Below are positions 4,631-29,496 of a stretch of 32,020 bases of DNA, one piece after another (position 1 is the first letter of the stretch; the number at the start of each line of letters is the position of its first letter). Under the pieces are notes generated by a model that saw only the letters and a program-made list of their open reading frames with translations, had not been told where the DNA came from and made no database searches. Both the position numbers and the translations under genes were made by a program. The stretch spans positions 1-32,020 of the IMG/VR virus record IMGVR_UViG_3300002835_000687. One strand, given 5' to 3'. This DNA is from a virus.

Positions 4631-4648
4631 TTCTATTCCTCTTTATGT

Positions 4649-5008
4649 TTACGCATGACCTGCAAATTGGCCATTGCCAGGATAAGCCAATACAGCATCC
4701 ATTATGTATTCTTGCACATCGCGGCCGCGATCATCCAAACGCCAGTGGTTACCACGGCGAAGCACCTCGACCAAAGAACGAGCATCATACTCTTCCGGAT
4801 CCCACTGACCTTCAAGCCCGTAGCAAGAGCAGTGAGAACCATACGCCCAGTAATAGCGATCACCCTGACGATAGATCACGTTGGCGTAACCTTCGTAAGA
4901 CGGAGTATTATACTCAGCATATATTACATCATCAGGCTCAGGCTCATTCATCTCAAACTCACGTTGAACGTCAGCCCAAGATCCAAACTGTTCACGATAA
5001 ACTTCCAT
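4649..5008 (-). CDS. Conserved phage hypothetical protein (119 aa)
   Basis: The product is acidic in the first half (MNEPEPDDVIYAEYN) and has a central aromatic/cysteine motif, YYWAYGSHCSCYGLEGQW, followed by DPEEYDARSLVEVLRRGNHW. The CSCYG...W pattern recurs in small phage proteins of unknown role; the two cysteines could bind a metal, but the spacing (C-S-C) is unusual for zinc. GGAG precedes the ATG by nine bases, and the start is directly adjacent to the stop of the 60-residue gene before it. Confidence 0.72.
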   Translation of the reverse strand: MEVYREQFGSWADVQREFEMNEPEPDDVIYAEYNTPSYEGYANVIYRQGDRYYWAYGSHCSCYGLEGQWDPEEYDARSLVEVLRRGNHWRLDDRGRDVQEYIMDAVLAYPGNGQFAGHA

Positions 5009-5191
5009 CTACTTCAACTCCATTTCCTGCAAGATATATTCACAAGTTATGACGCCTTCATCACAACCTAGAACTTCATTCATCTCAATAACTTGCAGTT
5101 TAGCTTCCTTTTCATCTTTGAAAGCACCAACAACATCAGACCAAGTTTCAATACCATCACGATAAAGTCGGTATATCAAATAAATATTCAT
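5009..5191 (-). CDS. Small hypothetical protein (60 aa)
   Basis: The product begins MNIYLIYRLYRDGIETWSD and has an acidic helix (AFKDEKEAKLQVIEMNEVLG). The layout beta strand, W, then 'DEKEAK' helix resembles the next gene (5188-5370), and both may belong to the same class of small phage alpha/beta proteins. It overlaps that gene by four bases (ATGA). No function is recognised. Confidence 0.65.
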   Translation of the reverse strand: MNIYLIYRLYRDGIETWSDVVGAFKDEKEAKLQVIEMNEVLGCDEGVITCEYILQEMELK

Positions 5192-5370
5192 TCTACAACC
5201 TCAATTCTATCTTCGGCCACCATGTACCAGTCAGGAGCGCGAAGGGCAGTATTCTCAGCATTGACCGCACGAATACGTTCCTTGGCAGCATTGTATGTAT
5301 CGTAGTCCTCATGCCAACGCTCTTGACCCCAGCCGCGTTCAGATTCCAAAAGAAAGATACGATACTTCAT
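5188..5370 (-). CDS. Small hypothetical protein (60 aa)
   Basis: The product begins MKYRIFLLESERGWGQERW, then DYDTYNAAKERIRAVNAEN, and ends WYMVAEDRIEVVE. It looks like a small alpha/beta domain with a single strand-helix-strand core. AGGA lies seven bases before the ATG. It has the same length and general layout as the downstream neighbour, so a local duplication is possible, but sequence identity is low by eye. Confidence 0.65.
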   Translation of the reverse strand: MKYRIFLLESERGWGQERWHEDYDTYNAAKERIRAVNAENTALRAPDWYMVAEDRIEVVE

Positions 5371-15620: not shown

Positions 15621-16007
15621 CTATATATCTCTTAGTCTCTTTCCAACAAACAAGTCAACTGAGATGTTTCTTGACCAAATGTCTTTACCTCTGACGCCTG
15701 TAATATAGTCTGGCATATAATCAAGAAACATCAAGAATGTTTTTAGTATCTGATAGTCTTGTTCATCTAGTTTAAAGAACAACATTCTAACAGCATTTCT
15801 AGTTCCAAAAACATTAGAGAGGATGATAATGTGATTTAGTATCAACCTCTCTTTTAGTTCTCCAGTTGTTTTATACCTCTTGATAAGTCTCTTTATATAC
15901 TTAATACGCTTTAAGTCTTCCTCAAATTCACTCATTATACAGTTAGGAGAATCATAGCACTTCATGGCATATATCATGAAGTTCTCATCATTTAAGTCTT
16001 CAATCAT
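15621..16007 (-). CDS. Conserved T4-like phage protein (DUF7207-like, 128 aa)
   Basis: The product starts IEDLNDENFMIYAMKCYDSP and continues EFEEDLKRIKYIKRLIKRYK, TGELKERLILNHIIILSNVFG and RMLFFKLDEQDY. This combination is a strongly conserved small all-helical protein in T4-like phages, recently catalogued as DUF7207 as far as I recall. No enzyme motif is visible. Its start overlaps the stop of the 264-residue gene (TAATG) and it lies in the virion-gene block, so an assembly role is plausible. Confidence 0.78.
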   Translation of the reverse strand: MIEDLNDENFMIYAMKCYDSPNCIMSEFEEDLKRIKYIKRLIKRYKTTGELKERLILNHIIILSNVFGTRNAVRMLFFKLDEQDYQILKTFLMFLDYMPDYITGVRGKDIWSRNISVDLFVGKRLRDI

Positions 16008-16801
16008 TATTTCTTTTTACGAATCATTTTCTTAGTTTTTTTCTTTGCCTTAGCTGAAATTGTTGAAGCGCGGCGGTCAGGATTAACTTTTTCTTTTCCT
16101 TTCTGAACAAAAGGAGGAACAAATGGTTCATTTTCTTCCTTCTTCATCATATTAGAAAGTGTGACTTTCTTTGCACCCATCTTCTTCTTGAGATTAGGCA
16201 TAGGCTCTTCATTCATCTGTGTAAATGTTTTGCCCCGCTTTTCATGCTCAATATAATCGTCAACATCATTTGATTGCTTTTCAGATTTCATCTTATTGAC
16301 TAACTTGTAGAGCATCTTGGATACACCACCCATAGAACGCTCTTCCGTAAGGTCTGTTTCATCATCTTCCACTTCTGCATCAAAATCGGCCATGATTTCG
16401 TTCAGTTCGTCTTCATTTACTACACTAGCGAAAACGTCAAACATACCTTCGTCATTTAGTGACCATTCGAAATATACGAACAGTGGAGAGTCGCTGGCGG
16501 TTACGACTTCTCCCTGGTCGTTCATTCCCATCTTTTTACCAAACTGAGAGATTTCAAAAACATCATTACCGTGATTTTGATCTAGAAAGATTGCCTTAGG
16601 GAGAAAGATTTTGTAGTATTCAAGAACCTTTCTAACATCCTCCAATGCGTTGTATGGAGTGCGAAATACATTAGCAGTTGTTACTTCCAAGTTTGAATTG
16701 ATAGCATCAACTACTGTTGGATCATCAATGGAAATACCACCATCATGATTGTATATCGCAGGGTCAAAATCTTCTGCTAGATATTCATTAAATCTCTTCA
16801 T
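16007..16801 (-). CDS. Putative internal/prohead protein with capsid-targeting-like N-terminus (264 aa)
   Basis: The first residues, MKRFNEYLAED, closely resemble the capsid targeting sequence of T4 internal proteins (MKTYQEFIAEA), which directs proteins into the prohead and is cut after Glu by the prohead protease. Residues 15-155 form an acidic globular part (DVRKVLEYYKIFLPKAIFLD; LFVYFEWSLNDEGMFDVFASVV). The acidic stretch near 140-155 is followed by two L-x-E sites (ELNE, DLTE) and a basic C-terminal tail from 160 (KKTKKMIRKKK at the end). Acidic core plus basic tail fits a DNA-contacting capsid-internal protein. No enzyme motif is visible. Confidence 0.7.
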   Translation of the reverse strand: MKRFNEYLAEDFDPAIYNHDGGISIDDPTVVDAINSNLEVTTANVFRTPYNALEDVRKVLEYYKIFLPKAIFLDQNHGNDVFEISQFGKKMGMNDQGEVVTASDSPLFVYFEWSLNDEGMFDVFASVVNEDELNEIMADFDAEVEDDETDLTEERSMGGVSKMLYKLVNKMKSEKQSNDVDDYIEHEKRGKTFTQMNEEPMPNLKKKMGAKKVTLSNMMKKEENEPFVPPFVQKGKEKVNPDRRASTISAKAKKKTKKMIRKKK

Positions 16802-16823: not shown

Positions 16824-17417
16824 TTAGGTGCCTGGGAAATACTTATCGTCGCCTGTATCATCACCAGTCATAGAACCCATGGCAACTAGAGTTTCATAAT
16901 TTACTCTACCTGCACGACCACCAAGTGTTACTGAGAATGTAGCAAAGTTGGCGCTGTTTGGTCCGTTTGGTGTGAGTGTTGGAGCAACGTTGAATCCAGC
17001 ACCTGGGCTGTGAATTACTACAGTAGCAATTGTGTTCCAATATGAGTTGGAAGAATATGTCTGTAGAGTATTGCGTGAGTTAGCAATGGTATATGCAAGA
17101 TTTACTGTGCCATCACCACCGCCTGAAACAACGATATAGCCAGCAGAATTGTAGTTCTGACCGCCATTTACGATTGTTACAGAAGCGATTGGACCTGTGC
17201 CAATCTTCTGTGATACCCAACCAGCGTGAGCAACTTTCTTACCGTCTACTAGCGTGTTTGCTGCTTCTGTTGCAGACACACCGTACACAGCACCGTAATA
17301 CTTTGCAGTATTAGCTTTGCTTCCGTTGATTGTAGAGTTTGAAACTCTATATGTTGTGTTGGCATACAAAGGCTTTCCATTGCCTGTGATGCCGTCTAGA
17401 TTTGTCCAAAGTGACAT
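16824..17417 (-). CDS. Virion structural protein, beta-rich (197 aa)
   Basis: The product begins MSLWTNLDGITGNGKPLYAN and contains YGAVYGVSATEAANT, KVAHAGWVSQKIGTGPIASV and a conserved end, GGRAGRVNYETLVAMGSM. This arrangement is familiar from abundant structural proteins of T4-like marine phages. The sequence is Gly/Asn/Ser/Thr-rich with repeated beta strands, as in head-decoration or fibre-like proteins. A strong AAGGAG site precedes the ATG, and an ATAAATA box is 53 bases upstream, consistent with high late expression. Confidence 0.8.
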   Translation of the reverse strand: MSLWTNLDGITGNGKPLYANTTYRVSNSTINGSKANTAKYYGAVYGVSATEAANTLVDGKKVAHAGWVSQKIGTGPIASVTIVNGGQNYNSAGYIVVSGGGDGTVNLAYTIANSRNTLQTYSSNSYWNTIATVVIHSPGAGFNVAPTLTPNGPNSANFATFSVTLGGRAGRVNYETLVAMGSMTGDDTGDDKYFPGT

Positions 17418-17428
17418 TTACTTTCTCC

Positions 17429-17827
17429 TTATTGAGTGCCTATCATAGCCGAATCTTGTTCTGGTGTAGTATTTATTATTGTAGACTTGGTATTGGAAGA
17501 TTTCTTATCTTCTCCAAGTCTGTATCTATCTGGTTTATTTCTTTGTAAACCTAAATCAGATTGCATTTTTTGTCTAGGTCCAGTCAACTTTTTAGCAATT
17601 CTTGGATGAGTCCTAATCGCGCCGCGCTTAAATTCATTCAGTTCGTCTTCTTTTACTACACCATGATGAATTTCTTTTGTTGCAGATCCTGGCTTTCTGT
17701 TTGGACTAGCAGGATCCTGTATGTCAGCTCCAGCGCCCCCGTATGGGCCACCAGAGCCAACTAACTTTTGTTCCATTTTCATTTTGCGAAGTGATTTAAT
17801 CATCTCCGCTAATTGTTTGTTGTTCAT
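17429..17827 (-). CDS. Hypothetical protein of the virion-gene block (132 aa)
   Basis: The product starts with a helical basic segment (MNNKQLAEMIKSLRKMKMEQK), then a Gly/Pro-rich low-complexity linker (GSGGPYGGAGADIQDP), then VKEDELNEFKRGAIRTHPRIAKK and a polar end. The ELNE site followed by a basic stretch is similar to elements in the two neighbouring large proteins. It is probably disordered in large part. It overlaps the 922-residue gene by four bases (ATGA). Confidence 0.65.
   Translation of the reverse strand: MNNKQLAEMIKSLRKMKMEQKLVGSGGPYGGAGADIQDPASPNRKPGSATKEIHHGVVKEDELNEFKRGAIRTHPRIAKKLTGPRQKMQSDLGLQRNKPDRYRLGEDKKSSNTKSTIINTTPEQDSAMIGTQ
17470..17476 (-). promoter_or_regulatory. 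Late-promoter-like box (ATAAATA)
   Basis: Minus strand AATAATAAATACTA, 53 bases before the start of the 197-residue structural gene. It matches the core of the T4 late promoter TATAAATA and lies inside the preceding gene. Confidence 0.4.
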
Positions 17828-20592
17828 TTTCTCACACCTGGTTTACCTGGTTGCGGTCTTGTCATGCTGTGTACGTTTAGACCTTGAGCGTCTTTACGTG
17901 GACCAGCAGGTTCATCTCTACCTGATTTACTTCTTGCCATTTGCTGTTGTAAAGCGTTTGATTTTTTAGTAACTTGTGGCTGTGCTTGTGTTTGTACTGG
18001 CTTTGGTTTAGGAACTGGAACAGATTGAGTTGTTGCCGTTACAGGTTGAATACGCTTAACTCCAACTTTATCTCGTTCTGCTCCTGCTGACATTGCTTGA
18101 GGACTCGCAGCATTAGCTGGTGCTACTGGAGTTGTAGATGCTTGTGCTGCAGGAGGTTGATTTCCACTCAAACTTCTATTTAAAGCATATCCACCAATTG
18201 CAGCACCAGCAGCACCAGCCGCTAGTCCTGCTTTTGCTTTATCACTGAGTCCAACAATTCTTGTTGCTCCACCTGCCGCGAGATTTGGAGAACCAGGTCT
18301 TGCAGGAAGATTTGGACCACTTGTAGGTCTTACAGCAGGAACACCAGGTCTAACATAGTTAGTTGGTTCTGTTGTTCTGCGTAAAGCTGGAAGTTGTCTA
18401 GCCTTTAAATCTGAACCAGCATTTTGTCTTGCTCTAGCTAATTTGTCTTGAAAAGTACCTCTGATACCAGCATTTCCTGATGGAATATCTGGCTTTTTTG
18501 CAGGCATAATAATTTCATCTGGTTCTCTTGCCGCTTGAGAGACAGGTTTAGCTGGCTTAGATGCAACTTTTGCTGTCGCAGATGAAACAGGTCTAGGTAG
18601 TAGTTTTTGGCCTACAGAACCTGCAGTTCTACCACCTTTTATAAAATTATATGCTGCTTTACTCGCTTTAACAGCGCCACCTACTAAAGCACCTCCAGCA
18701 AGATTCATGCCAACATCAGCGGCTGTTTGGCCGAGACCTTGTTGACCTCTAGCATACTTATCGATTGCCCTTGCTGCACCTACTCCAGGAACAAAAGGTG
18801 CAACAGTATCAATGCCTTTTTCCATTCTAGCGTCTAATTCTGCTCTACGTTGAGCAGCATTTTTTTGTGCGGGAATAGAACCAAGACCATAATCTGATCG
18901 CGCTCTTTGTACTGTTTTTTTCAATTCTGAAGGTTTTACACTAGAATTAACTGAGCTTGATTTTATATTTGATGATTTAAATCCTGATGATCTGTCTGTG
19001 TTAAATGGCACATGACCATGTCCGCCTCGTGCCGTAACAATGTCTGACACTTCCGCCACAACCTGCTTTTCAGCAGAAGCAGTTACGCTCAAGCCGTGGC
19101 GGTTATTAAAACCCTCGTTTTCCTCAGCAACTCTCTTGGCTGTTTCAGTTGCAATTCTCATTTTTTTGGCCATTGGCATGCCTGGATTTTCTCTTTCCAT
19201 AGCAGTAGCAACTTTTTCGCGCTTAGACTTTTCTGCTGATGTTAGCTTCTTTTCTTCAAGTCTCTTTGCAACTTTATCCATACGTTGCATTGTATCAACG
19301 TCTTTTCTAAAATCTGGACCAGGTCCCCAGCCTCGATCATCCCAAGCCCTTTTTTCTGCGGCTCTTGATTTCATAGTAGCCTTTAGTTTTAATAATTTCT
19401 TAGCAATTATGCCTTTTGGCATCATGCCGGCTTCTTCAAGATTTTCTTCCTTCATTGTGCCTGGTGGAAGAGAAGTCTTTGCAGCACGATTGACTGTCTG
19501 TTCCTTTGACTTTGCATAGTCAGGAGTTGTTCCTGCTGGAGCATAGTCTGGCTTCTTGATGCCCATCGAAGAAGGAGATGTCACATCGCTTTCTTTCATG
19601 GAACGTAGCTTCTTAAAATCTGCTGAAGTTAGATCACCAAAAGGTTCAGCAACATCCAACTTTCTTTTATTTGGATGATCAATATCGTTTTCTTCACTCT
19701 GCATTTTTTCAATTTGCGCTCTTGTTACATTTCCAGCAGCTTTAACATTGCCTTTTTCAAGTTCTTTCATTCTCCAGAAAAGATTATTAGTAACATCTAT
19801 TGCATTTTTATCTTTACGTCCTAAACGTCCTCTTTTAGGCTTTACCTTATTTGGTATACCATACATCTTTATCTTTTCTTCATCAAGTGCTTCTTCTTCT
19901 AATCTTTTTTTAGGTCTATTAGCAGGAACAACATCTTTCTTAGGTCTTTTAGCAGGAACAACACCTTTCTTACCTTCAATCTTATCGCCTGCCAACTTTA
20001 TCATCTTTGCATGTTTAGCTGCTTTTTCTGCCGAATTTATAATGAAGTCTGATGCGCCTTGAGGTGTTTTTTTTAGTTGCCAGTCCTTCATATTTCTAAT
20101 TATTGCGTGAACTTGCGTTTTACGCTTATTTTTATAGTTTTCTAAAGTTTCTGGAGACAATTCATTAAGTATTTCTACACCTTCTCTCATACCAGGAACA
20201 AAACCTTTAATTTCTTTTACTTTACCGTCTTTTACTATGAATCCTCTAATTTTTCTTATAGAATCGCTTAGATTATCATGTATATGTACACCATCATTAG
20301 GATCGTATTGAACTTTACCTGGACCAGCAATTTTTCTAATTTTCATAGACTCTGGTGTATTTAATCCAGGATGAAGTTTTGATTTTTTCTTTGCCTCATC
20401 AAGTGCTTCCACACCTTCTGTCAATACTGTCTTATAAGCAGCATCCCATTCGCCCTGACGTTCATGTGGAAGAGCCTTACGGTCTGTTACACCAAACTTT
20501 TCATTTACCAGTCTGACAGCATCACGCTCAGCCTGATTCTTTTTCATCACTTCTTGGACTGCGCCAATTAATGGATCGTTTTTGTTAAGCAT
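17824..20592 (-). CDS. Large mosaic, basic, mostly disordered virion-type protein (922 aa)
   Basis: This protein joins several short modules that occur separately in large phages. Residues 1-60 include VRLVNEKFGVTDRKALPHER; 140-155 have NELSPETLENYKNKR; two near-identical basic repeats follow at about 208-230 (VVPAKRPKKD, VVPANRPKKR); residues 447-492 have KKLTSAEKSKREKVATAMER and NPGMPMAKKM. The C-terminal third holds two Gly/Ala zipper segments (about 618-653 and 779-803), each long enough to cross a membrane, in a Pro/Ala-rich disordered context. No enzyme motif is visible. A late-promoter-like box lies 29 bases upstream. It is probably a virion or ejected protein; the glycine zippers fit membrane contact during DNA entry, which is inference. 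Confidence 0.7.
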   Translation of the reverse strand: MLNKNDPLIGAVQEVMKKNQAERDAVRLVNEKFGVTDRKALPHERQGEWDAAYKTVLTEGVEALDEAKKKSKLHPGLNTPESMKIRKIAGPGKVQYDPNDGVHIHDNLSDSIRKIRGFIVKDGKVKEIKGFVPGMREGVEILNELSPETLENYKNKRKTQVHAIIRNMKDWQLKKTPQGASDFIINSAEKAAKHAKMIKLAGDKIEGKKGVVPAKRPKKDVVPANRPKKRLEEEALDEEKIKMYGIPNKVKPKRGRLGRKDKNAIDVTNNLFWRMKELEKGNVKAAGNVTRAQIEKMQSEENDIDHPNKRKLDVAEPFGDLTSADFKKLRSMKESDVTSPSSMGIKKPDYAPAGTTPDYAKSKEQTVNRAAKTSLPPGTMKEENLEEAGMMPKGIIAKKLLKLKATMKSRAAEKRAWDDRGWGPGPDFRKDVDTMQRMDKVAKRLEEKKLTSAEKSKREKVATAMERENPGMPMAKKMRIATETAKRVAEENEGFNNRHGLSVTASAEKQVVAEVSDIVTARGGHGHVPFNTDRSSGFKSSNIKSSSVNSSVKPSELKKTVQRARSDYGLGSIPAQKNAAQRRAELDARMEKGIDTVAPFVPGVGAARAIDKYARGQQGLGQTAADVGMNLAGGALVGGAVKASKAAYNFIKGGRTAGSVGQKLLPRPVSSATAKVASKPAKPVSQAAREPDEIIMPAKKPDIPSGNAGIRGTFQDKLARARQNAGSDLKARQLPALRRTTEPTNYVRPGVPAVRPTSGPNLPARPGSPNLAAGGATRIVGLSDKAKAGLAAGAAGAAIGGYALNRSLSGNQPPAAQASTTPVAPANAASPQAMSAGAERDKVGVKRIQPVTATTQSVPVPKPKPVQTQAQPQVTKKSNALQQQMARSKSGRDEPAGPRKDAQGLNVHSMTRPQPGKPGVRK

Positions 20593-20620: not shown

Positions 20621-20627
20621 TATTTAT
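20621..20627 (-). promoter_or_regulatory. Late-promoter-like box (ATAAATA)
   Basis: Minus strand AGATAAATATAG, 29 bases before the ATG of the 922-residue gene, in the 42-base gap after the 1159-residue gene. Spacing fits a T4-type late promoter. Confidence 0.5.
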
Positions 20628-20634
20628 CTAAATC

Positions 20635-23600
20635 TTATTCTTCGCAATTCCAACGTCTAAGCGACATAGCCTTACGAGTTGGTCTGCCCTTTTCGTCTTT
20701 CATTGGGCCTTTCATGCCGCCCATTCTAGCACAGAATGACTTACGGCGTTTCCAAGCTTTACCGCCTTTTTTAAGTTTTGATGGAGGTGTAGTAACCGCT
20801 GTCTTGATACCAAAGTGCTTTGCGCCTTTTCTTGTTAGTCCAGCACCACTCTCGGTTGATCTGTATAGACCTTTTGAGTCTGCGCCGCGCTCATTTAACT
20901 GTTCTTCACTCTTACGCTGTGTTGGAATAGGACTCATATTATTGACTCCGCCTTCCATTCCTTCACGAAGTTTCTTCACTGATTTCTTTTCTTCGCTGTG
21001 TTCACATCCGCAACCTGCATTCTCTAGTTTTAATGCCGTCTCTACCAACTTTTCTTCCCACAAATCGCCATATTTTTCCATATACTTTTGCTGAGTTGAT
21101 TCCTTTGACATCCAGTTCTGAATGCTCTCGGATAGACCCATTGAATATGCTGAACCGTAACCGAATCCGTATGGTGTGCCTGCACGAGGAACACCGATGG
21201 TTGGGCCGATACCATCAGCGCCGAAGGCATATCCACCCTGCACAGATGCTTCCATGGCCTCTTGCTTCAACTTGTCTGCACTACGCATTAGTTCTTCTTT
21301 TGCTTTCTTAGCTTCTTCGGCATTCTTTTCAAGATGTGGTAAAGCCTTTACCATTTTCTGCCAAGGAGTTTTCTTCTTTGATTCGGCCACGAAACTTTCA
21401 AATGCTTCGTTGACAGGTACACAGTTAGGTACCATGCGATTACCTTTCTTCTTCATGCCCTTTTGCTCATAACCATCCCAGCATGTATCCTTTTCTTCGT
21501 TGACAGATGTCCAACCACCACCCTTAGACTTATACCACTTTGCTGCCCAACCATTAGCATATGCAGATGGATATACATCAAACTTTTTTCTGGCCATAGA
21601 CTTAGCTCTTGACCATAGTTCTGGATTTGTTGGCTTGTTCTTTTCCATCAAAACTTGTTCTGACATTCTGTCACGGTTAATCTTGTCAATTGCTTTTTGA
21701 ACTGACTCTGTTTTGACCATAATAGGTTTATTGCCTTTACCTGATCTATCTGCCACGGGATCCTCTCTTCTTTTTCTTCTTGCTGATGCAGCGCGTTCTT
21801 TTTTACTCATCGAATATGCTCTAGATGCCGGCATACATTTTGGTTTACCTTCACCTGGCTCTCTAGCACAATCGCCTTTAATGTTACCTTTTGTATCAAC
21901 TCTTTTCCAGTTGCCCTCTGGATGTGTTTTACTAAACCAATTTCTTAAATCTTCACTCAACTGAACCTTTACTAGTTTACCGCCTTGACTGTGGAATAAT
22001 ACTTTGTTTATACCATTAACTTTACGACCAAATCTACCAAAACCATAATATGACAAACCAAGTCTTCTGGCCTGATTCATCAAATCATTATCTGGCTTGT
22101 GAATAACACTTGGCATTTCGACATTCTGTCTAATCTGAGTAAGTGTCTTATATCTCTTTGGCTCTTGATATCCTGTGATACCACGATTTCTTGCTTCGCG
22201 TTCAATCCATTTTGCTGCTGCTGGATTTTGATTTTCAGAGCGAACAAACTGTTGAGCCATACGACGAATACGATTGAAGTTGGCCTGAATCTTTTCTTTT
22301 TCTTCTGGTCCAACTTTGCGAACATCTGCTGTGTTATCGATGACAGCAAATTTTTCATTACCAAAAATCTTTTGCAGTTCGCCAATATTCTTTTGTGCTA
22401 AGTCCCATTTCTGCTGACGAATGTTTGGAGAATTATCTGGCACGCCTTGCTTATCTGTACCATCTGGAACTTTACGCTTGCCCATCTTACCGCGTTCAAC
22501 GTTACGCTCACGCGATACTTCATTAGAAGTGTTTACGAATACCATCATGGTTTCGTAGCCGTCTGCTTCCAAGTTTTGTTTGATTGTCTTGATTTTTTCT
22601 AAGTCATCTGCTGTGCCGTTGATGATGAGTCCAAGACGACCTGCAAGGGCTAGACGCTCTTGTTCTTTTGTAATGTTCTTCGCGCGGCCGCGCACGATGT
22701 CGCGCTCAACTCTTTCTTCATCCGGCATCTCAAGGTCTAGACCGTTCTTCTGCATTAGATACTCAAATGCAACGTCAGAATTGATTTCTTTCAATCCTTC
22801 ACCAGCAAGAGTGGAATTCATTACGTAGTCTTTACCAGAACCTGGACCACCAGCCAGAAAGATAGCCTTGAGTTTGCCTGGATCGTTTATACCCTCGCTA
22901 AGTTGACCACGAACAGCCTTGAATCCCTTGACTGCTTTCTTTTGATATTCACTTGATCCTTTTTTGTCTAGCCAATATCTGTCAATACCATCGTCATACC
23001 AAAGACCAGATGTTTGATTTGTTATAACGTATTGTGACACACCAGTCGGTGATACTTCACCTGTCACATTACCTAGTCCGCGAATACCACCGCCAATTGC
23101 TGCTGTGTTTGTTTCGACAACATAAGACTTGCCGAACATATCTGGATTGGCCTTAGCAAACCAACGCATAATCTTACCTGCTTCTGAGTTTGCTTCGTTC
23201 TCAATATCAGAACCAGTTGCGCCTTCTTTCTCTATATCTTTACCTAACCGACCATCTTCGTTCTGTTTGTGATGCACAAGTTCATGAGCAACAGAACGGA
23301 ATATGTCCATCGGATGTCTGTTCATAGTAGATATAGACAGTTCATTAGACGATGGATTATATGCTGCGAATGAATTGTATGAATCATCATCTGTCTTGTA
23401 TCTAACAGTCGGCATAGATTTTAGACCAAGCTTATCGGATGCAAATGACACAAATGAATCCAGCATAGGTGCTAGTTCTTTGCGTGTAATTTCTTCTTTT
23501 AATTGCTTTAATGTTTTTGGTTTTGGAAGTTTAGCGGATAATAGTTTATGCACAGATGCATCATATTTGCCAAACAAATCTTTGACAAACTCTTTCTGCT

Positions 23601-24114
23601 TTGCGTTGTCTAATGATACAAACTGCTTACGAAGTTCAGAAGCAGATGTGGCTGGCTTACCTAGAACATCGAATGTAAATGTAGGAGTGACGATAACATA
23701 ACCCTTAGGCATAGATGCATCACCAAAAGGCTGCAACTTCTTTTCATTGCCTGCATATGGTTGGAGATAACTTGGATTACCAGATTTGGTTGGTTTGAAT
23801 GAAAAACGAGGATCTTCTTCCATGTCTTTTTGCGACACAGCAAAGACTAAAACCGTCGTCTTAGGATCGTAGTCTTTTAGTATTTCTCTGGCGATGTAGG
23901 GATTGGTAACTTGCTTGATACTGTTAGATGGGACACCAGCCAGTGTCATCATCTTGACTTTTTCTTTGAAATTGAATGGACTCTTAGGTAGTTCTACTTT
24001 ATCAGATGTGGCAATGACTGCATCGCCGAACTTTGACTTGAGCCATTTATAGACCTGTGCATGGCCTTTATGGAAGGGTTGAAAACGCCCTGGATATACT
24101 ACTAAAACTTTCAT
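20635..24114 (-). CDS. Multidomain polyvalent protein: nucleotidyltransferase, zincin, P-loop kinase, Cys/basic modules (1159 aa)
   Basis: At least five modules are visible. (1) Residues 1-190 are a cytidylyl/NMN-adenylyltransferase fold: PGRFQPFHKGH with the HxGH motif (H15, H18) and TSASELRK near 156-163. (2) About 215-320: zinc peptidase-like, HExxH at 277-281 (HELVHH) with ENEAN acids near 305. (3) About 408-600: P-loop kinase, Walker A GGPGSGKD (422-429), INSDV and a basic lid, like zeta-toxin/polynucleotide kinases. (4) About 722-905: small Cys/basic modules including YPSAYANGWAAKWYK (DUF5872-like). (5) About 1076-1157: RRKSFCARMGGM and SLRRWNC (DUF6321-like). L-x-E sites sit at several boundaries. 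The plan fits 'polyvalent' phage proteins delivered with DNA. AGAGGGA precedes the ATG. Confidence 0.8.
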   Translation of the reverse strand: MKVLVVYPGRFQPFHKGHAQVYKWLKSKFGDAVIATSDKVELPKSPFNFKEKVKMMTLAGVPSNSIKQVTNPYIAREILKDYDPKTTVLVFAVSQKDMEEDPRFSFKPTKSGNPSYLQPYAGNEKKLQPFGDASMPKGYVIVTPTFTFDVLGKPATSASELRKQFVSLDNAKQKEFVKDLFGKYDASVHKLLSAKLPKPKTLKQLKEEITRKELAPMLDSFVSFASDKLGLKSMPTVRYKTDDDSYNSFAAYNPSSNELSISTMNRHPMDIFRSVAHELVHHKQNEDGRLGKDIEKEGATGSDIENEANSEAGKIMRWFAKANPDMFGKSYVVETNTAAIGGGIRGLGNVTGEVSPTGVSQYVITNQTSGLWYDDGIDRYWLDKKGSSEYQKKAVKGFKAVRGQLSEGINDPGKLKAIFLAGGPGSGKDYVMNSTLAGEGLKEINSDVAFEYLMQKNGLDLEMPDEERVERDIVRGRAKNITKEQERLALAGRLGLIINGTADDLEKIKTIKQNLEADGYETMMVFVNTSNEVSRERNVERGKMGKRKVPDGTDKQGVPDNSPNIRQQKWDLAQKNIGELQKIFGNEKFAVIDNTADVRKVGPEEKEKIQANFNRIRRMAQQFVRSENQNPAAAKWIEREARNRGITGYQEPKRYKTLTQIRQNVEMPSVIHKPDNDLMNQARRLGLSYYGFGRFGRKVNGINKVLFHSQGGKLVKVQLSEDLRNWFSKTHPEGNWKRVDTKGNIKGDCAREPGEGKPKCMPASRAYSMSKKERAASARRKRREDPVADRSGKGNKPIMVKTESVQKAIDKINRDRMSEQVLMEKNKPTNPELWSRAKSMARKKFDVYPSAYANGWAAKWYKSKGGGWTSVNEEKDTCWDGYEQKGMKKKGNRMVPNCVPVNEAFESFVAESKKKTPWQKMVKALPHLEKNAEEAKKAKEELMRSADKLKQEAMEASVQGGYAFGADGIGPTIGVPRAGTPYGFGYGSAYSMGLSESIQNWMSKESTQQKYMEKYGDLWEEKLVETALKLENAGCGCEHSEEKKSVKKLREGMEGGVNNMSPIPTQRKSEEQLNERGADSKGLYRSTESGAGLTRKGAKHFGIKTAVTTPPSKLKKGGKAWKRRKSFCARMGGMKGPMKDEKGRPTRKAMSLRRWNCEE

Positions 24115-24147
24115 TATTCCCTCTATAGGAACATTAACTTACAGAGG

Positions 24148-24154
24148 TATTTAG
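24148..24154 (-). promoter_or_regulatory. Late-promoter-like box (CTAAATA)
   Basis: Minus strand CACTAAATACC lies 34 bases before the ATG of the 1159-residue gene. It differs by one base from the ATAAATA core of the other boxes, so support is weaker. Confidence 0.3.
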
Positions 24155-24158
24155 TGTT

Positions 24159-24296
24159 TTATTGTTCTGACTCCATGGCCTTGTGCCAATACTTTTTCAG
24201 TATGTCCTGACATTCCTTTTCAGAATATGATTCAGGAACAGGTTTGCCTTTCAATTTTTGCCATATAGCGTTGGCTATCTCTCTTTCCCATGTCAT
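24159..24296 (-). CDS. Small hypothetical protein (45 aa)
   Basis: The ATG at 24296 overlaps the stop of the HAD phosphatase gene as ATGA. The product begins MTWEREIANAIWQKLKG and continues VPESYSEKECQDILKKYW, then ends MESEQ. It looks fully helical, with two amphipathic helices. There is no known family. The overlap with the phosphatase gene is the main support. Confidence 0.6.
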   Translation of the reverse strand: MTWEREIANAIWQKLKGKPVPESYSEKECQDILKKYWHKAMESEQ

Positions 24297-24952
24297 ATCT
24301 CATATTTCTTTCTTTTGAGTGTTTCACGCACAACTGAAGTGATTTCTTCAGCGATGGTCTTGACTTTAGCATTTGGAGTATATTTGGACACTCTACCATC
24401 TTTTACCAGATAACCCACTGCTTCCACGTTCGGATAAAGAGTTGCAACTTTGAATAGTATATCTAAGTTCTTTTCGTGGTCATCCCACATGCGAACACGG
24501 TCAAACTTACCAGTCTTTAGATATCTCTTGAGAATGACACCTTTGTTGATGTGGGCGGGTCCAGACTTTGAGACATTACCTGCACGTTCTACATAGACTT
24601 TATCAATCGGAAATCCATGGTCACGAAACGTCTGTAGAAACTCCTTATGGTCATCAAAGTCTGACCGAGCAGTAAGAATAATCGAATGTGAGTTTTCGGT
24701 CTGTCTTGCGACGATGTTTTTTGCATTATTCAGAACCGAACGGATAGGCTTGAATGTATCACGAAAGATTTTGCCTGATCTGAACTGAGCAAAGTCAAAC
24801 TTTTCATCTGGTGCTAGTTTGTAAGAATTAAACTCACCGGGTTCCAATATCTTTACTGTTTTGCCGTCCTTGACAACACCAACTCTGGCCGATGTTCGAC
24901 CAAGAGTGTCATCGATATCCCACACATTCAATGTACGGATTTCTTTATTCAT
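24293..24952 (-). CDS. HAD-superfamily phosphatase, RNA-repair-like type (219 aa)
   Basis: All HAD motifs are present: motif I DIDDT (D12 nucleophile, D14 acid/base), motif II ILTARS (T94), a lysine at K137 or K142 for motif III, and motif IV WDDHEKN (D157, D158). The order and the RMWDDHEKN end are like the phosphatase half of polynucleotide kinase/phosphatase and the 'Swiss army knife' RNA-repair HAD domain, which remove 3'-phosphates. The insert between motif I and II (residues about 20-85) is a small cap. It overlaps the ligase-like gene upstream and a 45-residue gene downstream by ATGA, so the end-processing genes are translated together. Confidence 0.85.
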   Translation of the reverse strand: MNKEIRTLNVWDIDDTLGRTSARVGVVKDGKTVKILEPGEFNSYKLAPDEKFDFAQFRSGKIFRDTFKPIRSVLNNAKNIVARQTENSHSIILTARSDFDDHKEFLQTFRDHGFPIDKVYVERAGNVSKSGPAHINKGVILKRYLKTGKFDRVRMWDDHEKNLDILFKVATLYPNVEAVGYLVKDGRVSKYTPNAKVKTIAEEITSVVRETLKRKKYEI

Positions 24953-26184
24953 TTTGACCAGTTCTTAGTAGCATTGAAGTTAGCTTGTGAAAATTCTAAT
25001 CTATCGATTAACTTGACGGCTTTACCTATTCGGTCAATAGCAACAAAACCTTCTGGCGATGTAACTTTTAATCCAGTCGAATCAATTCGAAGATAAGTGC
25101 CTAGAGAATCGCGGACTGTCTGGAGTTTCTTGACAATCATGTTCTTTGCTTTTGTTAGCAAGTTTTGCAAATCAAATATCTTCTTCAATTCATTCTTGTT
25201 GCTTGTATAGAAACGCATCACGATATTTTTTTCTTGCTGTCTCTTGGTCTTTGTATCAGCCTTTTTTGCATCGGTAATGTTCTTGTTTAACTTTCTTTCG
25301 ACCTCAAGAATGAGTCCTTGAACGTGAGCAGCAGTATTAGTAATCTCTTGACCTTCACGAACTTTGGAATTATTCCATGCTTTGATTTGAGTTTTATATC
25401 CTTCGTTCGTAGCAATCTCATTTAGTGTCCTTGCTGAGATTGTTCTGAACAGTGTGCCTGCTTGTGATAGAAGGCCATTTAGTTCAGCCGTTTCTGATGC
25501 AGTAAACGTGGCTGTACCAGATGCATCAACAAAAGATGCATCGCGGAACCAGACATTCTTTGACTGTCTAAGATTTCCAATGTCAGCACCAAACGATGCC
25601 TTCATATTTTCCATACTATCTCCAGAATAAGTCGTATGCCATACTATGCCTATTTTAGCAGATTTTATCTGTTTTGCAAGTGAAGAATCTGCTGGTACAG
25701 TATATACGATTGTGTTCGGCTGAAAAGTGATATAATCTTTTCCATCAATCTTTTCTGACTTCAAGTCTTCTTTGGTAAACATCATATCGCCTTGCAATAT
25801 ACCATCAATGCCGAGTTCAGGAAGATATTGTAAAGCGATCTTTAGTTTCCTGTTTAGGCCTTCGCCAGGATGATTATTGTCAATGTCATTGTTCGTATAG
25901 TTCAACTTTGCATTCTTTGCGAACACGCCTTTGGTGCCCACAAAGAATTTTCCATTCTCTGGATTAATACCAGCAAATATGGCTGGTGCACCATCCCACT
26001 TAGTTGTGAGATTTAGAGTTTTACCAGTAGCATGACCAGAAAGCATATCACGAAGAGACTGTAAAAAGGATATTGCACCTCTTGTGCCAGAAACTCCTCC
26101 ATTGAGTACCTCGTCCTCTAGGTGTTCTAAGTGAAGGTTCTTACCTTCTTTTGCTTCTGTTAAGTAATTTTGATAGTTTAACAT
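24949..26184 (-). CDS. DUF6267-type protein with nucleotidyltransferase/ligase motifs and capsid-targeting-like start (411 aa)
   Basis: I recognise this as the DUF6267 family of T4-like phages. It carries the motif order of covalent nucleotidyltransferases (DNA/RNA ligases, capping enzymes): motif I TKWDGAP (K62 as candidate AMP-linked Lys, then D64-G65), a motif III-like ILQGDMMF (129-136), motif IV PEGFVAI (377-383) and motif V AVKLIDRLEF (389-398). The spacing between III and IV is long and filled with helices. Its first residues, MLNYQNYLTEAKEG, resemble the T4 capsid targeting sequence MKTYQEFIAEA, with an L-T-E|A cleavage-like site. AAGGATTAAAA precedes the ATG. The HAD phosphatase follows with ATGA overlap. 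Ligase activity is inferred from motifs only. Confidence 0.75.
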   Translation of the reverse strand: MLNYQNYLTEAKEGKNLHLEHLEDEVLNGGVSGTRGAISFLQSLRDMLSGHATGKTLNLTTKWDGAPAIFAGINPENGKFFVGTKGVFAKNAKLNYTNNDIDNNHPGEGLNRKLKIALQYLPELGIDGILQGDMMFTKEDLKSEKIDGKDYITFQPNTIVYTVPADSSLAKQIKSAKIGIVWHTTYSGDSMENMKASFGADIGNLRQSKNVWFRDASFVDASGTATFTASETAELNGLLSQAGTLFRTISARTLNEIATNEGYKTQIKAWNNSKVREGQEITNTAAHVQGLILEVERKLNKNITDAKKADTKTKRQQEKNIVMRFYTSNKNELKKIFDLQNLLTKAKNMIVKKLQTVRDSLGTYLRIDSTGLKVTSPEGFVAIDRIGKAVKLIDRLEFSQANFNATKNWSK

Positions 26185-26193
26185 TTTTAATCC

Positions 26194-27501
26194 TTAAGGC
26201 AATCTAAGTTCGTAGTTAACCATGCCTTGCTTGGCATCAATATCATCTATGGCAGATTTTGATCCTATGATCTGAATGGTCGCTGAAGCTGAAGGTACCA
26301 TTCTATATTTTACTTTACCTTTTTTCCATTCTGCAATATCTAAGTTTGCCTGCCAAAAGTTTTTACCTGCTAATATTTCAACCATAGCAGCAACAGATTT
26401 GGGATCTGAGTTTAATCTATCTGCCATCGATCTTGAGAAGAATGCTGTCATTGAATATGGAAGTTTATCAACAATCTTTTTATCTGCTGATTTTTTAATT
26501 ATATCTAAAACTTGTTTTGCTTCAGGTGTTAACTTTTTAGGATTCTTACCATAAGTTTTTACATTTGTATATATTGCATATGGATCTTTAACCGTTGCTC
26601 TTGAAAGTCTCAATACTTTTCTGATACCATATTCATATACGACTTCTTTTGATCCTTGTTTCGATGTAAGAGCGGCAGAAGAGACGCCTGCTTTTCTGGC
26701 CGAATCAATAACATCATTTATGACGCTTCCAGAAGGCACGTTAGAATCCATTGCCTTGTTCAGAAGATTCGAAAAGAATGAAGCTTTAGCACCAACACCA
26801 TACTTTGAGCTAATTGGAACAACAGTGCCGTTGCTCATAACAAGAAAACTATCTACACCAGAGAACGAAGGATCAGTAGGAACACAGAACATATCAACTG
26901 TACCTTTGTAGAACTTTGTAGAAAAAGGTTGTGTGTTATTCTTAAGTGCAAGTAGTCCTATGATTACTTCACCAACATATTTACCCAACTCATTAATATC
27001 TGAGTCTGGTATTTGTTTTTGCCAAATGAGTGTTTCATAGTTGCTCTTTGCAAAGCTCTCAAAAACTTCTATAATACTTTCAGATACTTTAGAATTTGAT
27101 TTAAGACCTTTAAGTATAGAGTTCATCAAAGATGTATGATTACTGAACGTCATACAATCAACTTTTTTACCACCAAACGCAACTTGCTTCTTTGTTCCAT
27201 ATTTTGTCAAAGTCTCGGCTCTTACACCTAGATTTTCTGTAGCACCTTTCTTAAGAATTGGTTTGCCGATATATTTCTCTGAAACGAAACCTTCTACTTC
27301 TTTTCCTTTTTTCACATATTTAATTTGATACTTGGGAGAGAAGGCTGGCATCTTGACAACTGTGATAGGTGAACCATCTTCTAAAGTGTCAATGAATGCG
27401 TTTTCACCGTCAGTAACTTTAGCTGGTCCTTTAACTATTGCAGTTTGAACATCTTCTTTAGAGAAGTATTTTTGCCATTTTTGTGCGCCAGTGCTAGCCA
27501 T
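26194..27501 (-). CDS. Conserved phage protein of unknown function, SH3-like N-terminus (435 aa)
   Basis: The N-terminal part has an SH3-like strand pattern (TVVKMPAFSPKYQIKYVKKG, VEGFVSEKYIGKP, residues 45-80). The central part has KYVGEVIIGLLAL (E178), GVDSFLVMS (D217) and VPISSKYG (S231, K233). The order helix-Glu, Asp, then S-x-K is similar to degenerate PD-(D/E)XK nuclease cores, but with Ser instead of the second acid, so catalysis is doubtful. The C-terminal region (KYRMVPSASATIQIIG) is beta-rich. It lies directly upstream of the ligase-like gene with a nine-base gap and behind a late-promoter-like box, so it belongs to the same late unit. The function is not known. Confidence 0.68.
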   Translation of the reverse strand: MASTGAQKWQKYFSKEDVQTAIVKGPAKVTDGENAFIDTLEDGSPITVVKMPAFSPKYQIKYVKKGKEVEGFVSEKYIGKPILKKGATENLGVRAETLTKYGTKKQVAFGGKKVDCMTFSNHTSLMNSILKGLKSNSKVSESIIEVFESFAKSNYETLIWQKQIPDSDINELGKYVGEVIIGLLALKNNTQPFSTKFYKGTVDMFCVPTDPSFSGVDSFLVMSNGTVVPISSKYGVGAKASFFSNLLNKAMDSNVPSGSVINDVIDSARKAGVSSAALTSKQGSKEVVYEYGIRKVLRLSRATVKDPYAIYTNVKTYGKNPKKLTPEAKQVLDIIKKSADKKIVDKLPYSMTAFFSRSMADRLNSDPKSVAAMVEILAGKNFWQANLDIAEWKKGKVKYRMVPSASATIQIIGSKSAIDDIDAKQGMVNYELRLP

Positions 27502-27530: not shown

Positions 27531-27725
27531 TTATTTATCTTCTTTTTCCTCAAACTCTTTCCACTTGTCCAATGGGCAGGAAACGAAGGGTAGCAAAGTC
27601 TTGTAGTCCATAAAGCATCCACATTCAGCACATTGAGAATTTCTAGGATTGAATCTATCACATCCTCTACAAACAGACAGTCTTTCTTCTGAGATTTTAA
27701 ATCTGTTCTTAAAAAAGTTCTTCAT
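27531..27725 (-). CDS. Small zinc-ribbon protein (64 aa)
   Basis: The product has CRGCDRFNPRNSQCAECGC with two CxxC pairs and ends SCPLDKWKEFEEKEDK. Proteins with this C..C ... C..CGC.M..K ... CP..KW pattern are common in phages of Gram-negative bacteria and often sit next to glycosyltransferase or structural genes; no activity is known to me. GGAGACTTGTT precedes the ATG. The gene is divergent from the plus-strand glycosyltransferase, so the 56 bases between them must hold both start signals. Confidence 0.78.
   Translation of the reverse strand: MKNFFKNRFKISEERLSVCRGCDRFNPRNSQCAECGCFMDYKTLLPFVSCPLDKWKEFEEKEDK
27532..27538 (-). promoter_or_regulatory. Late-promoter-like box (ATAAATA)
   Basis: Minus strand AAGATAAATAAAG, 31 bases before the ATG of the 435-residue gene and overlapping the end of the zinc-ribbon gene. 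It would start the ligase-like/HAD late unit. Confidence 0.5.
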
Positions 27726-27781: not shown

Positions 27782-29056
27782 ATGTCTGATAAAATCTTTG
27801 TGCAAATTGCTGCCTATCGTGATCCAGAACTTCTTCCAACAATCCGAGATTGTATTAAACGGGCTGATAATCCAGAAGACCTTGTGTTTGCCATTGCTTG
27901 GCAACGGGCTAAGGAAGATACCTGGGACACTTTGGAAGAATATAAAAACGATTCACGATTTAAGATCATCGAAATTGATTATAAAGAAGCACAAGGTACC
28001 TGTTGGGCTAGACATCTTTTAAATGAAGCGTATGACGGCGAAAAATATACGTTGCAGTTAGACAGTCATCATAGATTTGTTCGTGGATGGGATACCAAGT
28101 GTAAGAAGATGATGTTAGATTTGATAGAAGAAGGATACTCAAAGCCTCTTCTCACAGCATATGTTCCTTCGTATGATCCAGACAATGATCCTGCCTCGAG
28201 AGCAAAGGAAGTTTGGAAACTTACTTTTGATAGATTTACACCAGAAGGTGTGGTGTTTATGCTTCCTACTGGAGTAGATGACATTGACATTTACAAGTTA
28301 CCTATTCCTACTAGATTCTTTTCTGCTCATTTTATGTTCACTTTTGGACAATTTATCAAAGATGTGCCTTACGATCCAAATTTATACTTTCACGGTGAAG
28401 AGATTACGATGGCAGTTCGTGCTTATACGCACGGATACGATCTGTTTATTCCCAATGAGATTATTTGTTGGCACGAATATACTAGAAAAAAGCGTGTTCG
28501 CCACTGGGATGAAAAAGATAATGGATGGGAAAAAAGAAATGATGCTTCTCTAAAGAGATCAAAACAACTTCTACAAGTTGATGGCGATAAAGCAAACTAT
28601 GATTTTGGTATATATGGTTTTGGCACAGAAAGAACGAAACAAGATTATGAAGAATATGCTGGAATAAGATTTGAAGATAGAGCAGTGCAGCAATATACTC
28701 TAGAACATTATGATCCACCAAATCCTATCTACAGAAACGAGATTGCTCGTCAAAAGTCTTATAAAAACATTTTCAAACATTGTCTAGATGTATGGAAAGA
28801 ATCAATTACAGAAACAGACTGTGATTTTTGGGTTGTTGCATTTAAAGACGAAAAAGATAACGACATGTATAGAGAAGACGCTAACAAATACGAAATTGAA
28901 AATATTGTTAATAATCCAGAAACTCTTGATGGCGACTTCTACAATATTTGGAGACAGTTTGACACAAAAAAGAGACCGCACAAATGGATTGTATGGCCTC
29001 ATAGTGCGAGTAAAGGATGGTTAGATCCTATAGAAAATACTATTCCTGATATTTAA
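27782..29056 (+). CDS. GlcNAc-type glycosyltransferase (Pfam GlcNAc family, 424 aa)
   Basis: This is the only plus-strand gene. The product begins SDKIFVQIAAYRDPELLPTI, then GTCWARHLLNEAYDGEKY and TLQLDSHHRFVRGWD, where the D-x-H is the expected metal/UDP site. Further motifs are FSAHFMFTFG, YFHGEEITMAVRAYT and WHEYTRKKRVRHW. This matches the family of the eukaryotic Skp1-hydroxyproline GlcNAc transferase, also found in bacteria and phages, which moves GlcNAc from UDP-GlcNAc. I choose the ATG at 27782, with GGAG six bases upstream, over earlier in-frame ATGs. Residues from about 330 on are less typical. The 3' end overlaps the dps stop by convergence. Confidence 0.88.
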   Translation: MSDKIFVQIAAYRDPELLPTIRDCIKRADNPEDLVFAIAWQRAKEDTWDTLEEYKNDSRFKIIEIDYKEAQGTCWARHLLNEAYDGEKYTLQLDSHHRFVRGWDTKCKKMMLDLIEEGYSKPLLTAYVPSYDPDNDPASRAKEVWKLTFDRFTPEGVVFMLPTGVDDIDIYKLPIPTRFFSAHFMFTFGQFIKDVPYDPNLYFHGEEITMAVRAYTHGYDLFIPNEIICWHEYTRKKRVRHWDEKDNGWEKRNDASLKRSKQLLQVDGDKANYDFGIYGFGTERTKQDYEEYAGIRFEDRAVQQYTLEHYDPPNPIYRNEIARQKSYKNIFKHCLDVWKESITETDCDFWVVAFKDEKDNDMYREDANKYEIENIVNNPETLDGDFYNIWRQFDTKKRPHKWIVWPHSASKGWLDPIENTIPDI

Positions 29057-29496
29057 GACTTCATACCAGCAGTAGCACGAAGCATCCAACCGTGCTTCTT
29101 GTGAATGTCCATACGGTCTTGCAGAAAGTTGGCCAAACCTAGTTCGCCTTCTTTATCTGCAAGATCGTATGCTTGTTTGAGTGCATCAAGGATGATATTA
29201 TTATCATTGATTAGAATCTGAAACATTCTTTCTGCTGTCGGAATGGTATCAGATTCCTCAATTCTTGTAAGTTCCTTGATTCTGTCTAATGAACTGGGAG
29301 CGAAAGAGTTCACAGCGCGGATCTGTTCTGCAATCGTGTCCACTGCACCATGCAATTCTTCGTATAGATTGCCAAAGAAAGCATGATACTCAGAAAAATT
29401 TGGACCAATTACGTTCCAGTGAAAAGAGTGCGTCTTTAGATACATAGTGAATGTATCGGCCAAAACAATCTTTAATACGTTATGAAGTTCTTCCAT
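29053..29496 (-). CDS. dps: Dps-like ferritin-fold protein (147 aa)
   Basis: The four-helix ferritin fold of Dps is clear: THSFHWNVIGPNFSEYHAFF followed by ELHGAVDTIAEQIRA. H26, H38, D53 and E57 align with E. coli Dps H51, H63, D78 and E82 at the ferroxidase site. The place of D67 is taken by G42, so iron oxidation may be altered or lost; phage members seem to share this. Dps oligomers store iron and protect DNA from oxidative damage. Its stop overlaps that of the plus-strand glycosyltransferase. GGGAG precedes the ATG and a late-promoter-like box lies 26 bases upstream. Confidence 0.85.
   Translation of the reverse strand: MEELHNVLKIVLADTFTMYLKTHSFHWNVIGPNFSEYHAFFGNLYEELHGAVDTIAEQIRAVNSFAPSSLDRIKELTRIEESDTIPTAERMFQILINDNNIILDALKQAYDLADKEGELGLANFLQDRMDIHKKHGWMLRATAGMKS

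Follow-up and report, generated by a model that had tools for sequence, protein, structure and literature searches.

A candidate virion-cargo operon of a T4-like phage, built around a predicted ligase-type DUF6267 protein with a capsid-targeting-like leader

Phage T4 makes its Pnkp and RnlA pair in the infected cell. T4 also targets proteins to its capsid: in internal protein III, residues 4 and 7 mainly govern targeting and residues 8 and 10 processing (PMC9026906), and the sites at which gp21 cleaves Alt read ITE and LTE (PMC5694885). Phage polyvalent proteins often contain zincins that are thought to process them (Iyer et al. 2017, PMC5512222), and a survey of jumbo phages reports sets for RNA repair that combine a ligase with a kinase and a HAD phosphatase and are not described as head cargo (PMC7824862). 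Here and below, statements on published work, virion lists included, refer to excerpts of the cited sources. In the literature searched, we found no report of a packaged ligase or a packaged RNA repair set, and the terms 'capsid targeting' and 'cyanophage' occurred together in one article, on Lindsay Black and T4 head assembly. We analysed the 32,020 bases of virus record IMGVR_UViG_3300002835_000687 (the window), whose genes mark it as a piece of a T4-like phage genome. Four consecutive genes on its minus strand encode proteins of 435, 411, 219 and 1159 residues. A first-pass annotation had seen in the last three a ligase-like protein, a phosphatase and a kinase that are packaged together as a repair set, and the open reading frame (ORF) list places these three genes on the minus strand where it had put them. 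We find that the 411-residue protein, a member of family DUF6267 (24949–26184, minus strand), is very probably a ligase-type enzyme and that its start resembles a capsid-targeting leader. A virion-cargo operon in which DUF6267 is a packaged ATP-dependent ligase has, in our judgement, slightly better than an even chance of being the full explanation.

The assignment of the 411-residue protein to DUF6267 is unambiguous (Pfam E 5.1e-114), and the family, to which neither Pfam nor PHROGs assigns a function, is labelled T4-GC 71 in cyanophage annotation. Our literature search returned no paper using the name DUF6267. The family occurs in 465 of 50,697 phage records, always at less than 60% identity, and 451 of the 465 bear the names Synechococcus, Prochlorococcus or cyanophage. 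When the window protein was aligned with 24 relatives (25–91% identity to it), 21 columns were invariant. Residues K62, D64, G65, Q131, D133, E378, G379, V381 and K391 are unchanged in all 25 sequences, and K62, D64 and G65 as well as E378, G379, V381 and K391 are also invariant in a larger alignment of 85 sequences (the window's and 84 of 94 non-redundant complete ones). By our reading, these residues follow one another as motifs I, III, IV and V do in ATP-dependent ligases. The KxDG of motif I (residues 62–65; 25990–26001, minus strand) would supply the adenylylated lysine, K62, and the stretch from EGFV to the presumed motif V lysine spans residues 378–391 (25012–25053, minus strand). The motif order read by the first-pass annotation therefore stands, except that its lysine-rich motif V shrinks to one invariant lysine (K391) in the place of a KxK pair, with R395 nearly invariant.

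One DUF6267 gene of the set (locus L061) contains an intein-like insert (2356–4692) directly behind its KWDG motif; the insert's own frame is broken inside. Inteins favour active sites.

Structure prediction of the 411-residue protein, which had been posed as a refuting test, gave a ligase-type nucleotidyltransferase fold. The model, built from 85 sequences, has a pLDDT of 84.1 and a pTM of 0.81, and includes a helical region at about residues 229–356 and an HxxHxED motif ahead of motif I. When 998 of Foldseek's 1000 best PDB chains were re-aligned to the model with VIA, all 50 matches listed were RNA or DNA ligases (Z 5.7–8.7), with the caution that a best Z of 7–8 may be background. The best match is the Naegleria RNA ligase (Z 8.7, root-mean-square deviation 3.8 over 185 residues), followed by Trypanosoma brucei REL1 (8.0), T4 Rnl2 (7.8), T4 Rnl1 (7.6), fungal Trl1 (7.5) and then other RNA and DNA ligases. 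It is the uniformity of this list together with the invariant motifs that makes the ligase reading strong. Apart from the VIA caution and the single motif V lysine, the points that count against it are that Foldseek itself placed a DNA ligase first at an E value of 0.17, below significance; that a comparison of the DUF6267 profile with T4 RnlA aligned 19 columns at a probability of 0.6%, just the EGxV–K stretch; and that in a viral fold library, viral ligases rank without significance below 13 rows at E up to 0.001. These 13 rows (16–40% identity; uncharacterised, cytidyltransferase-like, NrdB or nameless) we read as the family's own members. Pfam family PF09414 gave no match to DUF6267 at E values up to 1, and a search of the DUF6267 profile against the sequences of solved structures returned four rows, no ligase among them.

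What such a ligase would do is a separate matter. According to a strong rival explanation, to which we give a sizeable chance that falls somewhat short of even, T4-like marine phages use DUF6267 as their stand-in for a DNA ligase, in intracellular replication, recombination and nick repair; the leader found in some lineages would then supply the entering genome, and the healing of tRNAs or other ends would not be its job. With T4 as positive control, neither PF01068 nor PF09414 matched in 10 of the 12 DUF6267 phages tested, PF01653 was absent from the ten of those twelve that were tested for it, and neither PF01068 nor PF09414 was found in any of five relative contigs, all of which are possibly incomplete. 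Since most of the DUF6267 phages tested thus lack both families, DUF6267 may simply be their ligase. The location of the gene points the same way: 12 isolate regions were viewed, and the majority have it in the replication region, close to the gp41 helicase, the gp61 primase or nrd. In S-SSM7, ACG-2014f and S-CREM2 it is located elsewhere. However, DLP6 and S-CRM01 have a PF01068 ligase besides DUF6267, and a gene of S-CREM2, which gave no Pfam match, is annotated as DNA ligase. The nearest folds in the VIA list are RNA rather than DNA ligases, by small differences, and for a stand-in ligase a leader would be superfluous.

The leader comprises DUF6267 codons 1–10 (26155–26184, minus strand) and ends in L-x-E. 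With Y4, Y7, L8 and E10, the window protein has all four of the positions that are important for capsid targeting in T4, which bears out the capsid-targeting-like start noted in the first-pass annotation. Of 93 distinct leaders, among them one artefact that stems from the broken L061, 75 have F or Y at position 4 and 77 have Y or F at position 7; positions 8 and 10 were preset by the search pattern, so positions 4 and 7 alone are free evidence. The loose pattern, which is permissive, fits 94 of the 95 distinct contig N-termini counted and the strict pattern 71, whereas the leader is absent from 13 of the 17 distinct isolate N-termini counted. The isolates were hand-picked from the match list and the contigs chosen by their similarity to the window. 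Sequences without the HLEH core were excluded, among them L062 and L107, which have no leader, the truncated L027 and L104, and one isolate, L084; ortholog starts were chosen by a script as those nearest to the query's start, which favours similar lengths. Going by these N-termini, the leader is a conserved add-on in the window's clade. Melnitz (Methylophilales host) and HTVC008M (Pelagibacter host) are among the phages that bear it.

A gp21-type protease (Peptidase_S77) is encoded in four of five relative contigs, including G001, which is near-identical to the window and whose DUF6267 is identical. In relative contig G003, the strict leader stands at 6 of 195 ORF starts and at 1 of 892 internal methionines (Fisher p 2e-4). 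The six proteins are DUF6267, an Alt-like ADP-ribosyltransferase, a SAM lyase, a GNAT protein (1.4e-5) and two without Pfam match. In G001, the strict leader is found in DUF6267, in a 264-residue protein and in a 60-residue ORF. The window's copy of the 264-residue protein (16007–16801, minus strand) is a predicted second capsid cargo, with leadered counterparts in G001, G002 and G003. The 60-residue ORF (window positions 5188–5370) also fits the strict pattern, and we count it as a likely false match. Other false matches occur in S-CREM2: a strict match falls within nrdA, and loose matches fall within further genes.

The leadered Alt-like ADP-ribosyltransferase (56993–57919, L180; PF03496 2.2e-21) and SAM lyase (166344–167177, L186; PF23780 2.3e-9) of G003 are predicted to be injected counter-defence proteins.

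Published virion proteomes of relatives provide a comparison for the leader. In S-CREM2, virions yielded the products of 52 of the 219 ORFs (PMC10665884), and all three of the annotated starts with a strict leader are in the virion list: ORF6 (SAM hydrolase), ORF14 (APH-like kinase) and ORF154 (cytidylyltransferase). For a rule drawn from S-CREM2 alone, the p value for three out of three is 0.013; a Fisher value of 2e-6 was set aside, as the groups compared had been picked after inspection of the data. Of two S-CREM2 proteins with a loose leader, ORF13 was detected and gp175 was not, and ORF136, with a leader resemblance by eye, was detected. The cytidylyltransferases S-SZBM1_140 of S-SZBM1 (PMC9146016) and T4-GC 190 of S-SM1 (PMC3037559) are both leadered and virion-detected. 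DUF6267 itself is leaderless in S-SM1, S-SZBM1 and S-CREM2, and among 13 neighbours of DUF6267 listed, three have the strict leader (L072, L082 and L084). As far as the three proteomes show, then, the leader seems to accompany packaging, and DUF6267 of the window's clade has it. We consider it probable that DUF6267 is packaged in this clade.

S-CREM2 encodes a leadered protein kinase that was detected in virions (L270:10579–12846), and S-CRM01 encodes another (L077:7700–10165); a putative kinase is reported from S-CRM01 virions (PMC10665884). An S-CREM2 virion protein annotated as Cas9-like (OR473000 7704–10313, L270) contains the leader-like stretch FASFMAE around residue 20, which a downstream start might explain.

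The leader-like start could also be a chance amphipathic N-terminus, in which case the proteins would be cytoplasmic only and their detection in virions of relatives would be carry-over. The authors of two proteome papers themselves allow carry-over as a source of virion detection (PMC10665884, PMC9602691). Nevertheless, the add-on is missing from most of the isolate N-termini counted, it is enriched at the ORF starts of G003 and common to its Alt-like and SAM-lyase proteins, and its presence or absence tracks detection, as far as the three proteomes show. We regard a chance origin as quite improbable.

The 1159-residue protein (20635–24114, minus strand) has several enzymatic domains, two of which, the NMNAT-like and the zincin-like domain, were absent from the first-pass annotation. 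Residues 1–200 (23515–24114, minus strand) form an NMNAT-like nucleotidyltransferase domain with the motif GRFQPFHKGH (Pfam CTP_transf_like 1.3e-11); a PDB sequence search gave a Methanocaldococcus jannaschii protein (1f9a, 1.8e-4) as best match and NMN adenylyltransferases next. Residues 205–334 (23113–23502, minus strand) resemble a zincin-type metallopeptidase. Their HExxH-type motif, HELVHH at residue 277, is present in 12 of 12 relatives examined; profile support is weak (phrog_87 metallo-protease, E 0.084). After a linker follows a P-loop kinase of the PNK/zeta type (residues 408–640; 22195–22893, minus strand), then further repeats and DUF6321 (residues 1090–1155; 20650–20847, minus strand; Pfam 2.6e-14). 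Homologs of the protein are broken and re-fused near residues 205, 334 and 405. In its sequence the protein fits the polyvalent type, with several enzymatic domains that include a zincin-like one.

The Walker A motif that the first-pass annotation had placed at residues 422–429 of the kinase is there from G422 to K428, with D429 where S or T is usual; in some distant relatives of the kinase the residue after the lysine is S, G or N. The kinase matches Zeta_toxin (PF06414; 1.6e-9, 37.9 bits against a curated cut-off of 22.3) and AAA_33 (1.2e-6), and its alignment with T4 Pnkp spans 161 columns (93% probability, E 2.8e-7). This alignment retains Walker A, an Asp (NSD/NRD) and RN..R, but shows F opposite an Arg of T4 three residues further along; we take the T4 residues to be the general-base Asp, the substrate Arg and the lid Arg pair. 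Zeta toxins, polynucleotide kinases, tRNA(Sec) kinase and adenylate kinases are all about equally good fits to the kinase. A profile search of the PDB found adenylate kinases, zeta and PNK without deciding among them, and the single sequence found no convincing relative there.

Directly ahead of the kinase, residues 405–407 read LSE and are followed by G (22894–22902, minus strand), as at a prohead-protease-type site. [LIVM]xE stands at this place in 67 of 67 distinct homologs (42 fused or long, 25 stand-alone; one of 128 kinase loci was excluded as it gave no Walker A match), [LI]xE in 64 of the 67, and the next residue is G in 66. The sequence ahead of this LxE is unrelated between fused and stand-alone contexts. 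From this pattern we read the LxE as a putative prohead-protease site; the alternative is a conserved domain edge. The LxE residues are of low confidence in the kinase model, which we disregarded, since the model begins at residue 405 and a loose end is to be expected there.

The NMNAT-like domain raises a further alternative, that the cargo counters NAD+- or nucleotide-directed defences: the NMNAT-like domain and the kinase would rebuild NAD+ or other small molecules, and the nucleotide acceptor of DUF6267 would be something other than a nucleic-acid end. In its favour, the fusion of a kinase to an NMNAT-like domain is reminiscent of NadR. The GRFQPFHKGH domain is present, and NMNAT-like or cytidylyltransferase proteins occur in cyanophage virions, where their discoverers read them as NMNAT-like (PMC9602691, PMC10665884). 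On the other side, the kinase matches are to Zeta_toxin/AAA_33 and T4 Pnkp, no nicotinamide riboside kinase model is among the Pfam and NCBIfam matches, and the NCBIfam NMNAT equivalog cut-off is far off (28.7 against 181.2 bits). Overall we think this alternative unlikely.

The 219-residue protein (24293–24952, minus strand) overlaps the DUF6267 gene by four nucleotides. It is a HAD-superfamily phosphatase with all four motifs, as first annotated: D12/D14/T16, T94, K137 and D157/D158, which we assign to them, are invariant in all 13 aligned sequences, the window's included. It matches phrog_415 'polynucleotide kinase' (1.7e-8), its alignment with T4 Pnkp is weak and extends over 14 columns only, and its profile found no convincing relative in the PDB. 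Among loci with at least 450 nucleotides of room, a HAD relative lies 0–1240 nucleotides downstream of DUF6267 in 64/64, 5/30 and 1/38 loci by falling identity. The first of these figures is biased, because the HAD protein itself served to retrieve many of the loci.

What we have computed are families, a predicted fold, invariant active-site residues, a leader and the match of that leader to published virion lists; from these we infer a course of events as follows. DUF6267 would represent a new family of ATP-dependent nucleic-acid ligases, in which K62 is adenylylated and AMP handed to a 5'-phosphate end. The leader would draw the protein into the prohead core, where the gp21-type protease would trim it after E10. 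The trimmed enzyme would be packaged with the DNA, ejected into the cell and seal breaks ahead of phage gene expression. Its partner would be the polyvalent-type protein with its NMNAT-like, zincin-like and PNK/zeta-like kinase domains and C-terminal repeats; the gp21-type protease, the protein's own zincin or both would probably cut it at LxE sites. The HAD phosphatase would be produced together with these two, and its place of action may be the infected cell instead of the virion.

A number of observations weigh against packaging and a joint function. At least two contig DUF6267 proteins, L062 and L107, are leaderless and stand outside the leader count. S-CREM2 is a weak control, with the strict leader at 2 of 156 ORF starts and 1 of 772 internal methionines; the count at starts is low because ORF14 begins with an uncounted GTG. 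DUF6267 was not found in the excerpted virion tables of S-SZBM1 (S-SZBM1_141) or S-CREM2 (gp87), both of them leaderless, and the literature searched yielded no report of a virion-borne DUF6267 protein. Among core cyanophage proteins, T4-GC 15 and 190 are the only ones that the main text on S-SM1 lists for the virion (PMC3037559); this is informative about DUF6267 only provided that T4-GC 71 belongs to the core. There are also leaderless cyanophage cytidylyltransferases, L073, L074, L075, L076 and L081 among them. Neither the HAD protein nor the 1159-residue protein has an N-terminal leader, and the HAD gene downstream of DUF6267 is local to the window's clade. Just 2 of the 25 stand-alone kinases (L132 and L263) have the strict leader; others have short starts ending in the same xE. 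The 1159-residue protein as a whole contains 11 LxE, near the 8.7 expected, so that the protease argument rests mainly on the joint ahead of the kinase, and some conserved LxE fall within domains, for example at residue 441.

Of the virion-packaged repair set, the ligase-type fold, the kind of leader that marks virion enzymes in relatives and the long alignment of the kinase with T4 Pnkp are retained. Its other side is less secure: two of the three proteins are leaderless, the phosphatase hardly aligns with T4 Pnkp, the kinase is about equally near to other families, the genes lie near replication and lysis genes, the window contains no tRNA gene, and PADLOC gave no match for the four block proteins. 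We therefore consider joint end repair at entry rather doubtful. Equally tentative is the wider proposal that T4-like marine phages have their unrecognised ligase in DUF6267, and that a widespread branch with the leader injects it and the processed kinase polyprotein as a repair kit that acts before gene expression.

The first gene of the block encodes the 435-residue protein (26194–27501, minus strand) and fills the remainder of 20635–27501. Pfam and PHROGs gave no family match for it below E 0.01. In phage Melnitz-3, the protein at the same position starts with a strict leader; the correspondence is one of position. A late-promoter-like ATAAATA box (27532–27538, minus strand) lies 31 nucleotides upstream of the gene. 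The window contains eight ATAAATA copies against 7.7 expected, a total no higher than chance, and no exact T4 late promoter TATAAATA. However, five of the seven minus-strand copies lie 21–31 nucleotides upstream of a gene start, compared with 13 of 99 for other words of the same letters, so the result for the late-promoter-like boxes of the first-pass annotation is mixed, favourable in placement and not in number.

The same annotation had put the block among structural genes, which we do not confirm. Downstream lie genes for an endolysin-type peptidase, a holin-like protein, DNA primase, ThyX and ribonucleotide reductase, and upstream a Dps-like and a transglycosylase-like gene. The sole structural hints are weak PHROG matches of a 197-residue ORF (16824–17417) to head closure (6.6e-5) and baseplate hub (2.9e-4). 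Box placement and neighbours together make the block a probable late operon outside any clear structural module. An Rfam scan of the window at the gathering score gave no match, and direct repeats in the block amount to weak two-copy matches only.

Next after the block is a 922-residue protein (17824–20592) without a Pfam or PHROG family match and with its own ATAAATA box (20621–20627). The upstream Dps/ferritin-like DNA-binding protein is encoded at 29053–29496.

If true, the ligase assignment closes a gap in those phages that have no recognised ligase family. The leader would be a simple sequence rule for virion enzymes in Kyanoviridae, and since it agrees with three published proteomes, as far as seen in their excerpts, cargo could be predicted from genomes. 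A T4-like phage may thus carry nucleic-acid repair enzymes into the cell along with its DNA, and if the ligase is indeed packaged, repair-based counter-defence can begin at entry.

Compared with internal proteins IPI–IPIII and Alt of T4, the locus shares the ten-residue leader with aromatic residues at positions 4 and 7 and L/I-x-E at 8–10, the enzyme cargo and, in the window's relatives, a gp21-type protease; it differs in that the cargo would be a ligase-type enzyme whose packaging is predicted. Like T4 Pnkp (PseT) and RnlA and bacterial Pnkp/Rnl/Hen1, it combines a kinase and a HAD phosphatase with a ligase-type protein, in a single block. Unlike the T4 enzymes, kinase and phosphatase are separate proteins here, the kinase is fused to NMNAT-like and zincin-like domains, and the ligase-type protein is of another family. 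The predicted fold and the order KxDG, QGD (in the place of motif III), EGxV and K are those of Naegleria RNA ligase, T4 Rnl2, trypanosome REL1 and fungal Trl1, whereas the HxxHxED motif, the helical region and the single motif V lysine set DUF6267 apart from them, as does the lack of a sequence-level match to known RNA ligases in the solved-structure search and the T4 RnlA comparison.

Polyvalent proteins (PMC5512222) resemble the 1159-residue protein in their many enzymatic domains per chain, a zincin domain, a zeta-like kinase and predicted co-delivery with DNA; the leadered companion ligase-type protein and the LxE sites at domain joints are different. A further parallel is found in cyanophages, where the orthologous DUF6267 (T4-GC71) lies next to a cytidylyltransferase (T4-GC190) that is a known virion protein, and where an S-PM2 entry seems to contain both as one chain of 591 residues. 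There, however, it is the cytidylyltransferase and not DUF6267 that has the leader in S-SM1, S-SZBM1, S-CREM2 and some others, and in further cyanophages neither protein has one.

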